From NCBI RefSeq assembly GCF_014236855.1, contig NZ_CP051261.1, forward strand, positions 5,182,418 to 5,246,417: a stretch of 64,000 nucleotides of DNA. The letters run 5' to 3'. Every line of letters starts with the position of its first letter. Position 1 is the stretch's first letter. The notes beneath the pieces are model-generated. The model made no database searches, was not told where the DNA came from, and worked only from the letters and a program-made list of their open reading frames with translations. This DNA comes from Xanthomonas sp. SI (GTDB taxonomy: Bacteria > Pseudomonadota > Gammaproteobacteria > Xanthomonadales > Xanthomonadaceae). Of the stretch, positions 57,149-63,107 are shown piece by piece. Made by a program: the position numbers and the translations under genes.

Positions 57149-57173
57149 GGCAAGTGGGCGTGCCCTACTTGCC
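57149..57173. terminator. Convergent hairpin between the oxidoreductase gene and mnmE
   Basis: GGCAAGT (57149-57155) pairs with ACTTGCC (57167-57173), extended by GGGC/GCCC. The mnmE stop codon (57165-57167) lies inside the stem. It can serve both convergent transcripts, but no U-tract is present. Confidence 0.45.
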
Positions 57174-58505
57174 GATGCAGAAGCTGGAGAAGATCCGCCC
57201 GAGCAAGTCGTCGGCGCTGAGATGGCCGACGATCTCGCCAAGCGCGGCGTGCGCCAGGCGCAGTTCCTCGGCGGCCAGTTCCAGCCGTTCGTAGCCCAGC
57301 TCGGCCGCCGCGGCGGTGGCGTGTTCTGCGGCGCGCTGCAGCGCCTCCACGTGGCGCGCACGCGCGGAGAATTCGCCGTCGCTGCCGTCGCCGGCGGCAT
57401 GCCCGGCGATCGCGCGCAGTTGCGCGTGCAGCTGTTCGAGACCGCTGCCGGTGCTGGCGGAGACGTAAATGCTGTCTTCCGTCGCTTCCGGCACGGCGTC
57501 GAGCAGATCGCTCTTGTTGTGGATCCACAGCCGCTGCGGCACGTCGGCGATGGCCTCGGCGATGGCGGCGCGGCCGGCGTCGGCAGCGCGCGCGTCGAGC
57601 ACGATCAGCGCCAGGTCAGCGCGCTGCAGCTCCAGCCGCGCGCGGCGCATGCCTTCGCGCTCGATCGCATCGCCGCCGTCGCGCAGGCCGGCGGTGTCCA
57701 CCAGGGTCAGCTCGACGCCGTCCAGGCGCACCGTCTCGCGCAGGGTGTCGCGGGTGGTGCCGGCGATGTCGGTGACGATGGCGCGCTCGCTGCCGGCCAG
57801 CGCGTTGAGCAGCGAACTCTTGCCGGCGTTCGGCGGCCCCACCAGCACCGCGTGCAGGCCGTCGCGCAGGCGCCGGCCGCGTTCGGCGTCCAGCAGCAGT
57901 TGCGCCAGGTCCGCACGCGCCTGTGCCAGACCGGCGCGCACTTGTTCGCCGCCGAGCGTGTCCAGCGATTCGTCGGCGAAATCGATCGCCGCCTCGGTAT
58001 GGATGCGCAGCCGGATCAGGTGTTCGGCCAGGGCCTCGACCCGGCGCGAGAACACGCCGTCCATCGACCTGCGCGCCGCGCGCGCAGCGCGCAGGTCGCC
58101 GGCGGCGATCAGGTCGGCGATCGCCTCGGCCTGGGCCAGGTCCAGCTTGCGGTTGAGGAAGGCGCGCTCGCTGAACTCGCCGGGCCGCGCCGGCCGCGCG
58201 CCGAGTTCGCAGCAGCGCGCCACCAGTTGCCGCAGCAGCACCGGGCTGCCGTGCGCCTGCAATTCCAGCACGTCCTCGCCAGTGAAGCTGCGCGGCGCCG
58301 GAAACCACAGCGCGATGCCGTCGTCGAGCGTCTCTCCCTGCGCATCGCGGAAGCGCGCATAGCGCGCCGTGCGCGGTGGCAGCGCGCCCAGGCCGAGACC
58401 GGCGCCGATCGCCGCGGCCAGGCGCCCGGACACGCGCACCACGCCAACGCCGCCCGCACCCGGGGCGGTGGCGATGGCGGCGATGGTGTCGGCGGCGTGC
58501 GGCAT
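57165..58505 (-). CDS. mnmE: tRNA-modifying GTPase MnmE
   Basis: With MnmG it installs the 5-carboxymethylaminomethyl group on wobble uridines. The 446-aa protein begins [27 protein letters not shown] (in two parts), the folate-binding domain follows, and the G domain has [12 protein letters not shown] (G1), DIAGTTRDT (G2), DTAGLRD (G3) and NKSD (G4). The C-terminus is the invariant FSSFCIGK, with the essential Cys. The ATG at 58505 is the family start. It is separated by 29 bp from the preceding lipoprotein gene, so both may be on one transcript. Confidence 0.97.
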
Positions 58506-58534: not shown

Positions 58535-61270
58535 CTACAACGTCTGCAGCTGCGCGCGCGCGTAGGCCGCCGAGGCGCCGCCCGGCTGCAGTTCCAGGTA
58601 GGTCTGGAACGCATGCTTGGCCTTGGCCGCATCGCCCATCTGCCGATAGGCGTCGCCGAGATTGATGTAGGCCACCGCGCGCGAGGGATCGATCTTCAGC
58701 GTGTTCTCCAGCCAGCGCGCGGCCTGCGCGTACTTGCCCTGGCGGTAGTAGATGAAGCCGAGATTGTTGGCCGCCAGCGCGAAGTCGGGACGCAGCTTCA
58801 GCGCTTCGGTGAACTGCGCCTCGGCCTCGTCGTAGCGCTTTTCCTTGTACAGCTGCAGGCCACGGTCGTTGGCGCGCTGCGCCTGTTGGCGATCGGACAG
58901 CGGCCCGGCCGCGACCGGCACCGCCAGCGGCCGCTCGCCGCCCTGCAGGTCCTTGACCACGGTCGGCTTGGCCGCAGGCGCCGCGGCCGATGCCGCCGCC
59001 GTGGCGGGCGTGGCCACCGCCGGCACCGCCGCGGCGACCCGATCGTTCATCGCGATCGCCGCCGAGGACAGCTGCTGCGTGTTGGCGGTCAGGAACTCGT
59101 CGCCTTCCGGCACCTGCAGCACGAACTCGCCGCCCTGCGAGCCGGGCAGGCTGCCGAACGCCGGCGTCTGCGGCGAGATGCTCGACACCGCCGGCGCCAC
59201 GTACGCGGCCAGTTCGGTGCCCGTGATCAGGCCGTCGCCATTGAGATCGCCCTTGCCCGACAGCGCCTGCAACAGCACCCAGGTGAACACCGAATGGCCA
59301 TTGGGGCCGCTGTCGGCGACCTGCTGGTCGGCACCGCCGGCGGTGAGCATCTGCCGCGCCACGCGCCGCGCATTCTCGCGCAGGTAGGCACCGGTGCCGC
59401 CGCCGCCGCGGGTCAGGCCCAGGCCGCTGTAGCAGGCGTCCATCACGAACAGCACGTGCTTGGCTTCCAGGCTCTCGGCGATGTCCTGAATCTCGGTCAT
59501 CGGGATCGCATCGGTGGCGAACTGTGTCGGGTCCGAATCGGCCGGCACGATGTAGCCCAGGTCGCGCCCGGAGGCGAGCTTGCGGGTGGCGCCATGCCCG
59601 GCGAAGAACACGAACACGCGGTCGTTCTTGCCCACCCCGCCGTGCGCCAGGCGGTCGTGGAACGCAGCCAGGATGTTGTTGCGCGTGGCTTCCTGGTTCT
59701 TCAGCACGATCACCTGCGACGACGGAAAACCGAAGCTGCCGGTCAGCGTCTGCGCGATCGCCTGCGCGTCGTTGGCCGCGTACTGCAGCTTGGGCCAGTG
59801 CGCGTAGTCGTCGATGCCGATCACGATCGCCCACGACTTGTCGTAGCCGCTGGTCACCGCCGGCGCCGCCGCATTGGCCGCCGCGCGCGCCACGCTGAAA
59901 TCGCGCCCGTTCCAGGCGGCGAACTGGTAGCCGTCGGCGCTGAGCCGGTCCAGGATCTGCGGCAGCGCCTTGACCGTGCGTGCGTGGATGTCGTGGAACA
60001 GCAGGATGCCGCGCTGCTCGCGGCCGACCTGCTCGAGCACGCGCTGCACGATCGATTCGGGCACCGGGTCGGCCCAGTCCAGCGAGTCCACGTTCCACAT
60101 CACCGACTTCAATCCGGCTTCGCCGAGGATCTGCATGCCCTCGGCGTTGCGCGCGCCGTACGGGAAGCGGAACAGCGGCGCGCGCTTGGCATCGACCGCG
60201 CGCAGCATGCGGTCGGTGTCCAGGATCTGGCTGCGCAGCGCGGCGCCGGTTTCCTTGGACAGCTGCGCATGGGTCAGGCTGTGGTTGCCGACCGTGTAGC
60301 CCTGCTCCATCAGCTCGCGGCTGACGCTGGCCAGCGGCGCCAGTTCGACCTTGCCGTCGGCATCGAGCTTGCCCAGGTTGCGGCCGACCTCGAAGAACGT
60401 GGCCGGCACGTCGTAGCGCTTGAGGATGGCGACGATCTCGTCGGTGTACTCGCGGTGCGGGCCGTCGTCGAAGCTCAGCACCACCGTCTTCGGCGGCAGG
60501 TCGCGGCCGAACACTTCGCGGTCGCTGTCCTGCATCGACATCGGATACGGGGTGATCACCCCGTAGTCGCGCAGGATCCGTTCGCGCGTGTACAGCGTGC
60601 CCAGGTGGGCGAGGTAGTCCTCCCACTTCTCGCGCTTCTGCACGATCGCGCGGGTGCGGTCGAAGCGGCTGAAGATCGCGGTGATCTCGCGGTTGTAGGT
60701 GCGCTCGATCTCGTCCAGCGCTTCCAGATCCTCGCCGATGCGCTGGTGCAGCTTGATCGCCGGCAGCGAGGAATCCTTGCCGATGCGCGTCTGCCAGTCG
60801 GCCAGGATCTCGCGGAACGCCAGGCGGTCGGCGTCGTACAGGTCCGGCGCCGATTCGACGTAGTCCAGCAGCGCGCCGACCGCGGCGAAACGCTGCGCGT
60901 CCGGCTGCGCCAGCAACGCATCGAACTGCTTGGCCAACGCGTCGCGCCGCTCCAGGCCTTCATGGAACAACTGCTGGCCCACGCCGCTGGAAGTCTGCCG
61001 CTCGGCCGGCGATTGCTTGGCCTCGTCGGCCAGCAGCACGATGATCTTGCGCTGCGCCGCCAGCTGTTCCTGCAGCTGCGTGCGGATCGCCGCGGCCTGC
61101 GCCTGCAGCGCGGGCGAACCCGGCAACGGCGTGGCGTCGGCGTCCGCCGCGTGCGCGGACGGTGCTGCGCCCGTGGCCGTGGACGACGTACTACGCTGGC
61201 AGCCTGGCAGCGCAAGCACGATCAGGCATAGCGCGGTGAACGGCAGGAAGGCGGAACGGCGGTCGAGCAT
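58535..61270 (-). CDS. Lipoprotein with NodB deacetylase, caspase-like, EF-hand and TPR domains
   Basis: A 911-aa multi-domain protein. The N-terminus is a lipoprotein signal (hydrophobic 8-21, lipobox ALPGC, Cys24 followed by Gln), so it should be membrane-anchored outside the cytoplasm. Residues 55-250 are helical. The NodB polysaccharide-deacetylase domain has SFDDGPH (266-272), His330/His334 (NHSLTH), RFPYGA (368-373) and LLFHD (423-427), all catalytic blocks present. A caspase/metacaspase p20-like domain starts at [11 protein letters not shown] (480-490) and has FFAGHG with His559 and VMDACYSG with Cys613. An EF-hand loop [12 protein letters not shown] is at 675-686, and three TPRs lie after about 790. 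The combination suggests a periplasmic, possibly calcium-dependent protease that also acts on cell-wall glycans. It lies between yidC and mnmE. Confidence 0.88.
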
Positions 61271-61332
61271 GGCCCGGGACTCGCAAGGACGGTGGCAGGA
61301 CAGGCGAGCGCGCAATGCCGCGGCCGCATACG

Positions 61333-61358
61333 CAACGCCCGCCTTGCGGCGGGCGTTG
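61333..61358 (-). terminator. 11-bp hairpin with GCAA loop downstream of yidC
   Basis: On the minus strand CAACGCCCGCC-GCAA-GGCGGGCGTTG, a perfect 11-bp stem with a GNRA tetraloop, 6 bp after the yidC stop and 62 bp before the next gene start. There is no U-tract, so it may be a partial terminator or an mRNA-stabilising element in the yidC-lipoprotein transcript. Confidence 0.65.
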
Positions 61359-61364
61359 TCGAAC

Positions 61365-63107
61365 TTACTTCTTCGCCTTGGCCGGTGGCTTGGCGCCGGC
61401 GCCGGCGGTGGCCGCCTCGCCGTGGCGCTTGGTCATCCACCACTGCTGCAACAGACCCAGCGAACCGTTGGTGACCCAGTACAGCACCAGGCCCGATGGC
61501 ACGAAGGCCATCATCACGCCGAACACCAGCGGCATGAACTGCATCATCCGCGCCTGCATCGGGTCCATGCCCGGCGACGGCGTCAGCTTCTGCGTCAGCC
61601 ACATCACCGCCACGTTGATCACCGGCAGGATGAAGTATGGATCGCGCGCAGTCAGGTCCTGGATCCAGGCGAACCACGGCGCCTGGCGCAGCTCCACCGA
61701 TTCCACCAGCACCCAGTACAGCGCGAAGAAGATCGGCATCTGCACCAGCACCGGCAGGCAGCCGCCCATCGGATTGATCTTCTCCTTCTTGTACAGCTCC
61801 ATCATCGCGGTCTGGAACTTCTGCTTGTCGTCGCCGTAGCGTTCCTTGAGCTGCTGGATGCGCGGCTGGAACTTGCGCATCTTGGCCATGCTCTTGTACT
61901 GCGCGGCCGACAGCGGATACAGCATCAGCTTCAGCAGGATCACCAGGCCGACGATCGACCAGCCCCAGTTGCCGAGCAGGGTGTGCAGGTGGCTGAGCAC
62001 CCAGAACAGGCCCTGGCCCAGGATCGCCATCAGCGAGAACCGGCTGTAGTCGACCACGCGGTCCAGGCCGCGCACGTTTTCCTTGGCGATCTGGTTGACC
62101 AGCTTCGGGCCGACCCACAGCCGCGCCTCGCTGCTGGCGCGCGCGCCGGGGGCCACGGTGAAGCCCGGGCCGCGCGCTTCGATGACATGCCGCGGGCCAT
62201 CGTTGGACAGCACGTACAGCGCGTCCTGGTCGGCCTGCGGGATCCAGCCGGTGAAGAAGTGGTGCTGCAGCAGCGCGATCCAACCGCCCTTGATGGTCTG
62301 GTTGAGCGGACCGTCTTCCAGGAAGTCCTTGAACGCGCGGCGCTGGTAGCCGTCCTGCGCGCTGAACCAGGTGGCGCCGTTGAAGCTGAAGGAATCCGGG
62401 TTGGTCATGCCGCGGCTGACGATGGTCGGCACCCGGCTCAGCTTGCGGAACACGTAGCCCTGCCAGGGCTTGCTGCCCTGGTTGATGATCTCGTCCTTGA
62501 TCTGCACCGCGTAGTGGCCGCGCTGCACGGTGTAGACGCGGCGGATGCTGATGCCGTCCGGGCCATTCCACACGAACGGCACCTGCAGCGCGTCCTGGCC
62601 CTTGGCCAGCACGTAGTCCTTACCCGGCTGCTCGGGGCGGAAGCCGCCCGGACCCGGCGAGGGCGCGTTGTGCTCGCCGACCCAGCCGCTGGTGGCGGTG
62701 TACGGATGCACCGGGTCCTCGGTCAGCAGCGCCACCGGCGGGCTGCCGGGTTGCTTGGTCTGCGGAAACATCAGCAGATCCGCGTCGAACACGCTGCGCC
62801 CGTCCAGGGTCAGGTGCAGCACGTCGGTGGTGATGGTGACCCGCGGCGCGGCGCCGGCGGCGGTCGGGGTGGCGGCCGTTTCGGGCGTCGTGCCCGGCAC
62901 GGTAGCGGCACCGGGCACGGTGGCGCGCGGCACGGCAGGCGTGCCGGCGTTGCCGGCATCGGCGTCCTGCGCGGGCGGCACCGTGGTCGCGGCCGCAATG
63001 GCGGTCGCATCGGCCGCAGGCGCGGCGTGCTCCTTGTTCCACTCCATCCACAACAGGGCCGCGACCATCAGCCAGGCAAAGATCAGGAAAAGGCGGGTCT
63101 GGTTCAT
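61365..63107 (-). CDS. yidC: Membrane protein insertase YidC
   Basis: Inserts and folds inner-membrane proteins, alone or with SecYEG. The 580-aa protein has the proteobacterial form: TM1 at about 5-21 ([15 protein letters not shown]), a long Ala/Pro/Thr-rich linker and a periplasmic beta-super-sandwich (P1 domain, about 80-340), then the five-helix core with [22 protein letters not shown] (in two parts) and [25 protein letters not shown]. The C-terminus is basic. It is directly downstream of rnpA (18 bp), with no yidD between them. Confidence 0.97.

Follow-up and report, generated by a model that had tools for sequence, protein, structure and literature searches.

A Xanthomonas deacetylase–caspase–TPR fusion protein with a lipobox is predicted to act in the periplasm and to cleave after Arg or Lys

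The 64-kb window analysed here (the whole stretch of DNA under study), which is the terminal stretch of a 5.25-Mb one-contig genome, encodes a protein that, judged from its sequence and a predicted structural model, carries an export signal with a lipobox, a full CE4 deacetylase site, a full caspase dyad, an EF-hand-type loop and TPRs. This anatomy favours, as the most likely reading, a periplasmic envelope protein with two enzymes over a cytoplasmic executioner of cell death. The deacetylase-caspase-TPR architecture itself is already known, having been described in 2012 as the ‘Xanthomonas-type metacaspase’ (PMC3501461, available text). To this our analysis adds catalytic sites that are invariant in intact copies, purifying selection, a predicted Arg/Lys specificity, conserved EF ligands, an export or anchor element in all aligned homologues, and a yidC-mnmE site that is confined to Xanthomonadaceae among 41 loci. 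The first-pass annotation of this DNA had read the protein correctly and carefully, but the architecture had already been published, and its interpretation as a whole is partly supported.

The gene is an uninterrupted reading frame of 911 codons on the minus strand (58535-61270), as had been proposed, and its 911-residue translation has a predicted mass of 98.6 kDa. All the residues that had been singled out (D268/D269, H330, H334, H426-D427, H559, C613 and the EF loop D675-E686) are in place, and a near database relative from ‘Xanthomonas sp. GW’ is 98% identical. Upstream lies yidC (61365-63107, minus strand), an open reading frame named from our reading and the locus account in the available text of PMC3501461; downstream lies mnmE, or trmE (57165-58505, minus strand), named as in the same source, whose ATG starts 29 bases past the fusion-gene stop codon. 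A GC-rich hairpin without a T run sits right behind the yidC stop (61330-61366, minus strand; -26.1 kcal/mol, z -4.65), and may terminate or stabilise the yidC transcript ahead of the fusion gene; a promoter and terminator scan gave no match.

Residues 1-24 (61199-61270, minus strand) form a lipoprotein signal ending in LALPGC, in which Cys24 is predicted to be lipidated. The lipobox claimed in the first-pass annotation holds when judged by eye, with a hydrophobic N-terminus leading to a lipobox Cys. Cys24 is present in all 35 sequences of one alignment (the window protein and 34 loci, with L001, the window itself, and L036/L037, a broken copy from genome G477, left out), and in 56 of the 62 rows of a second alignment, A1 (the window protein and 61 sequences chosen from the 240 matches listed), where the other six rows have gaps. 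The window's own lipobox reads L-P-G-C; its -2 position is occupied by Pro, against Ala in 28 of the 35 sequences. Gln at +2 after Cys24 would presumably direct outer-membrane sorting under the E. coli rule. With start codons picked by script and elements judged by eye, we also read an export or anchor element in 35/35 aligned homologues from the 41 named loci: a lipobox Cys in 15 (Xanthomonadaceae, five Burkholderiales and a Myxococcaceae MAG), an N-terminal hydrophobic anchor in 18 (Oxalobacteraceae, two Comamonadaceae MAGs, a Deltaproteobacteria MAG and two Acidobacteria), and an apparent cleavable signal peptide in two (L079 and L086).

Behind the signal lies an all-helical domain at about residues 50-245 (60536-61123, minus strand; model helices 53-235), in which no Pfam family scored above its cut-off, residues 1-247 returning one sub-threshold match only. 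At the opposite end, the predicted TPR domain (residues 792-911; 58538-58897, minus strand) was borne out by Pfam TPR models at about 795-908. A single predicted model (mean pLDDT 73.1, pTM 0.42) holds both the CE4 and the caspase folds by fold comparison.

CE4 enzymes are defined by their catalytic and metal residues Asp, Asp-His-His and His. In the NodB/CE4 domain of the window protein (residues 258-455; 59906-60499, minus strand) this set (D268, D269, H330, H334 and H426) is complete and invariant, in 35/35 sequences and in 62/62 rows of A1; we take these residues, together with R368, D395/D398/W399 and D427, to play the roles that they have in CE4 enzymes. In a diverse 36-row set, drawn from the 41 loci L050-L090 after six (L073, L078, L084, L088, L089 and L090) had been dropped as broken, cut at a contig end, in a wrong frame or without caspase, D268/D269 were found in 35 rows, the exception being L076 of X. 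nasturtii. The domain assignment made at first pass was upheld by Pfam Polysacc_deac_1 (PF01522), which matches residues 257-389 (E 2e-27; 96 bits against a gathering cut-off of 23.1). The specific deacetylase families among the NCBIfam equivalogs stayed below their cut-offs (PgdA at 106.4 of 800 bits, PdaB at 118.8 of 237.4 and NodB at 103.9 of 240), so the glycan substrate is a guess. PgaB-type exopolysaccharide deacetylase models match weakly. Peptidoglycan deacetylases are among the close CE4 structures in the fold comparison, and 7bkf, which has been called a CE4 pseudoenzyme, is a fold match too.

The caspase (C14) domain (residues 476-725; 59096-59845, minus strand) was likewise recovered, both by Pfam Peptidase_C14 (PF00656; residues 479-674, E 5.9e-22) and as a caspase fold in the predicted model, which aligns with MALT1 and metacaspase-4 until about residue 720. 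A caspase-only single-sequence model (pLDDT 42) was discarded as too poor. The dyad H559/C613 is invariant in all three alignments (35/35, 62/62 and 36/36). Three residues, D501, D611 and D648, are the proposed acidic lining of the S1 pocket; each is found in 62/62 rows of A1, and in 36, 36 and 34 rows, respectively, of the diverse set, where the D648 position holds 34 Asp, one Glu and one Asn. In sequence alignments to solved metacaspases D501 and D611 align with TbMCA2 Asp95 and Asp211, while D648, matched by loop position, lies in the loop that holds MALT1 Glu500. According to the available text of PMC6426788 and PMC4357240, the pocket for basic substrates includes Asp95 and Asp211 in TbMCA2 and of Asp365, Asp462 and Glu500 in MALT1. 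Judged by alignment and loop position, the window protein appears to have acidic residues at the MALT1 positions; the basic S1 site of caspase-7 consists of Arg87, Gln184 and Arg233. Because this specificity pocket is acidic, the window protease is predicted to cleave after Arg or Lys, and not after the Asp of DEVD assays; the characterised non-caspase members of C14 all strictly prefer Arg/Lys (PMC5756287, available text). Two segments of the model, the loop that follows Cys613 (615-630) and the NodB-caspase linker (462-474), have pLDDT < 50, and R621, R636 and R639 are present in 36/36 rows of the diverse set; a hypothetical cut at 465/466 would give predicted pieces of 49.1 and 47.0 kDa. 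The EACC1-associated caspase model (NF047832) stayed below its cut-off of 140 bits, at 87.6 for the whole protein and 90.3 for the caspase part alone, and, with regard to a possible defence system, sequence P0001 was matched by the PADLOC ‘caspase’ model at 79.9 bits.

Downstream of the catalytic Cys, residues 675-686 (59213-59248, minus strand) form an EF-hand-type loop of 12 residues, with ligands at positions 1, 3, 5 and 12, which the model places between predicted helices 661-673 and 684-698. The ligands D675, N677, D679 and E686 are invariant in 35/35 sequences and in 62/62 rows of A1, and are kept in 36/36 rows of the diverse set, three distant sequences having an N/D swap between the third and fifth loop positions, with His also replacing Gly680 in one of the three. 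The earlier EF-hand claim therefore stands for the loop, its ligands and the helix-loop-helix arrangement, but not as a profile match, since a Pfam search admitting E values up to 1 gave the window protein no EF-hand model; a relative, P0267, reaches 17.6 of 25.9 bits with EF-hand_5. A family fragment from Xylella fastidiosa (P0306) has Lys at the third EF ligand position and a diverged post-Cys loop. On sequence grounds the loop appears distinct from the four-Asp calcium site in the p20 of TbMCA2 (Asp173/189/190/220): by ungapped count from D611, Asp220 falls on T620, a position that is Thr in 36/36 rows of the diverse set and Thr/Ser in 62/62 rows of A1. It may instead be the counterpart of the low-affinity p10 calcium site in the 280-loop that is described in the available text of PMC5756287, where calcium-independent activation of orthocaspases is also described. 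Because periplasmic calcium may be constantly high, the loop may also be structural.

We rejected, as a strict claim, that this loop is unique to the fusion. It was found in 0/9 order-level relatives matching the caspase region only, and in 0/30 PF00656 loci from the phylum sample (28 assessable; in the other two the script found no His-Cys pair). However, among 14 assessed out of 20 caspase loci taken from Acidobacteria, Myxococcaceae and other carrier genomes, five were fusions, all with the loop; of the nine others, taken irrespective of NodB content, three also have it, equally far from the Cys. The loop therefore does not by itself distinguish the fusion, and P0267 combines it with a signal-peptide-like start and a caspase but without PF01522.

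The pattern of conservation points to constraint on both putative enzymes. Mean identity in A1 is highest for the caspase (73%), followed by the TPR (67%), NodB (65%) and helical (55%) domains. In five pairs, dN/dS was 0.034-0.094 for the caspase, 0-0.181 for NodB and 0.063-0.138 for the TPR domain, with 0.13-0.36 for the helical domain and 0.14-0.50 for the linker; these values indicate that the NodB and caspase domains are both under purifying selection.

The fusion is carried by 16 of 20 same-genus genomes, the window's own included, and at E <= 1e-100 it has a match in 70 of 395 genomes of the family sample (Xanthomonadaceae), in 8 of 54 genera, most of them nearly full length. Further out, matches at E <= 1e-60 were found in 7/398 genomes of the phylum sample, five of them from the window's own family, and in 5/149 of the Acidobacteriota sample, of which three run along the fusion and two (G913 and G940) only to the NodB end. 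The best 80 of 582 confirmed loci in a named scan came from Pseudoxanthomonas, Massilia, Duganella, Janthinobacterium, Rugamonas, Undibacterium, Rhodoferax, Hylemonella, Variovorax, Rhizobacter, Albitalea, Pelomonas, Rubrivivax and others, and included a Myxococcaceae MAG, Acidobacteria MAGs and a Saccharospirillaceae MAG. Three database relatives labelled Bacillus subtilis, Rhizopus arrhizus and eukaryote (P0072, P0349 and P0327) are probably contaminants. A midpoint-rooted tree was built from 42 sequences, with L064 and L076 left out; in it the 13 rows from Xanthomonadaceae group as a single clade (100/100) amid mainly betaproteobacterial rows; Acidobacteria and L086 have long branches, and their placement is unsure. 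This recurrence of the same single gene across many genomes, with homologues in named records from several families and phyla, excludes a mis-assembly, so that a mis-assembled or chance fusion of two genes, already refuted, retains a practically negligible probability.

Each half is also found on its own, together with an export element: the caspase in P0267, and the helical-NodB part in anchored proteins that end after NodB, namely L088 (Holophagaceae; Pfam was run on this one only), L192 and L193 (Acidobacteriota). In one acidobacterial genome (G904; L190 and L194) a full-length fusion match stands beside a caspase-less helical-NodB copy reported with one TAG. A betaproteobacterium MAG locus (L073) was considered as a natural split into NodB and caspase genes, and rejected; its ORFs are consecutive but in different frames, as in a frameshifted or misassembled gene, and the counts do not include it.

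A position between yidC and mnmE, whose constancy the first-pass annotation had proposed to survey, proved typical of one family but not of others: within 4 kb on either side, or less where a contig ended, both neighbours were found near the fusion gene in 9/9 Xanthomonadaceae loci and in 0/32 loci elsewhere. In two genomes (G783 and G477) yidC adjoins mnmE and the fusion lies on a different contig. For 28 loci outside Xanthomonadaceae, ORFs from crude gene calls were clustered; apart from the fusion gene with its shadow frames, every cluster was limited to four loci or fewer, and the sole four-locus cluster was all Janthinobacterium; at that level of gene calling, the flanking genes offer no functional hint. 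(The queries for relatives were the window yidC and the window mnmE with one extra codon.)

The four same-genus genomes without the fusion have gaps between the yidC and mnmE matches of about 140-170 bases (G002, G016 and G017) or about 1250 bases (G001). Remnants remain in two of them: in G017, 22 codons of the fusion 3' end persist between yidC and mnmE (L039 1430-1495; 73% identical, E 4e-5), while in G001 an IS4/5-type transposase lies there with fragments of both fusion-gene ends (L038 2246-3730). At least two of the absences are therefore secondary losses. No fusion remnant was found between yidC and mnmE in G016, and a genome of another genus (G050) has a weak one (E 0.01). In addition, four of 21 carriers of genus g30 have apparently broken copies, though sequencing errors are possible: X. 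axonopodis DSM 3585 (G124, L064) has one stop, G266 and G375 match in separate pieces, and X. nasturtii (G295, L076) lacks NodB motif 1 and the greater part of the helical domain. Since the gene is absent from 4/20 same-genus genomes and apparently broken in 4/21 g30 carriers, it is dispensable in nature.

What such a protein might do can be pictured as follows. It would be kept in the periplasm by its lipid anchor and would there, through its metal-dependent NodB domain, strip N-acetyl groups off a glycan of the wall, peptidoglycan being the likeliest. Cleavage by the caspase domain would fall after Arg or Lys: first a self-cut, either in the linker (about 462-474) or in the Arg-rich loop behind Cys613 (R621, R636, R639), and then cuts in envelope proteins recruited by the TPRs, with calcium at the EF loop stabilising or gating the protease. 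The likely role would be envelope maintenance or a stress response, not an intracellular death programme. We give about even chances to this reading of an exported, membrane-tethered envelope protein in which a glycan deacetylase and an Arg/Lys protease both work. A more ambitious version, in which a calcium-gated Arg/Lys protease beside a glycan deacetylase serves at least three phyla as a periplasmic sense-and-cut device coupling proteolysis to wall modification, is a tentative proposal, and the chances are against it.

Other assignments of the two activities have to be weighed against this one. The deacetylase might act on exopolysaccharide or another surface glycan while the caspase has its own polypeptide as its main target, for release or zymogen activation. 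The low-pLDDT segments and fully conserved arginines described above would suit self-processing, as would the orthocaspase autoprocessing described in the available text of PMC5756287, and the weak PgaB-type matches would suit such a substrate. On the other hand, peptidoglycan deacetylases are among the near CE4 folds, and in L088, L192 and L193, which are without caspase, NodB is independent of it; we regard this alternative as possible but on balance improbable. One of the two domains might also be catalytically silent and merely bind, given that CE4 lipoproteins without deacetylase activity are reported (PMC4505593) and that 7bkf is among the fold matches. This seems unlikely in view of the low dN/dS in both domains and of motifs that are complete across Pseudomonadota, Acidobacteriota and Myxococcota rows of the diverse set.

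The remaining alternative, that the protein executes programmed cell death and is the source of the caspase-3-like activity in dying Xanthomonas cells, draws on published observations. The available text of PMC3501461 links the X. campestris pv. glycines homologue (GI 88792532) to programmed cell death and mentions cross-reactivity of its product with antibodies to caspase and PARP, adding that self-cleavage could account for a size difference. In addition, PMC4006831 (available text) measured activity on DEVD in X. campestris, with in situ labelling among its methods. However, that activity is on a substrate with Asp at P1, which sits badly with the acidic pocket here, and orthocaspases do not recognise Asp at P1, making such substrates inappropriate (PMC5756287, available text). 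Moreover, the word ‘metacaspase’ does not occur in the available main text of PMC4006831, the reported enzyme has a mass of 55 kDa (PMC3501461, available text) against 98.6 kDa here, and the window protein has an export signal. We therefore consider an executioner role very doubtful.

Three predictions follow from the sequence: specificity for Arg/Lys and not Asp, a periplasmic and not a cytoplasmic location, and calcium binding at the EF-type loop. They are relevant to the case made for apoptosis-like death in bacteria. If the sense-and-cut proposal were true, bacterial caspases would gain an envelope role instead of a cell-death role, and the DEVD activity cited for apoptosis-like death in Xanthomonas would stem from another enzyme. 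Functional work on the Xanthomonas-type metacaspase was called for in 2012 (PMC3501461, available text), and in the literature covered, which mostly excluded subscription papers, we found no work on mutants of this particular gene or on its enzyme. The predictions could also be examined away from crop pathogens, in carriers such as Janthinobacterium, Variovorax and Stenotrophomonas rhizophila.

Among known systems, the closest is the Xanthomonas-type metacaspase, which the available text of PMC3501461 describes as a 97-100 kDa protein that combines a deacetylase and a caspase with one to three TPR domains, has a conserved His-Cys dyad, and is encoded next to trmE (mnmE) with rnpA and yidC upstream. 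There it is reported from most analysed Xanthomonas (a caspase homologue being present in 8/10 genomes), Xylella, Stenotrophomonas and two Acidobacteria. The window protein belongs to this group by domain order, dyad, mass and trmE/yidC neighbourhood; relative to that text, in which ‘EF-hand’ does not occur, our analysis contributes the lipobox, the EF loop, the S1 residues and the Burkholderiales carriers. With orthocaspases and other prokaryotic C14 proteins such as MaOC1 of Microcystis it shares the caspase fold, the His-Cys dyad and the acidic pocket (PMC5756287 and PMC6426788, available text), but it differs from orthocaspases, which are defined by a missing p10 domain (PMC5756287, available text), in its deacetylase fusion, EF-type loop and export signal. 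Type I and II metacaspases (TbMCA2, Yca1 and AtMCA4) appear to differ in the calcium site, the window protein having Thr620 at the Asp220 position, by ungapped count, and an EF-type loop instead. Finally, compared with the CE4 peptidoglycan and chitin deacetylases (PgdA, PdaA/B/C and Bd3279), it falls under the specific NCBIfam cut-offs and is fused to a protease domain.
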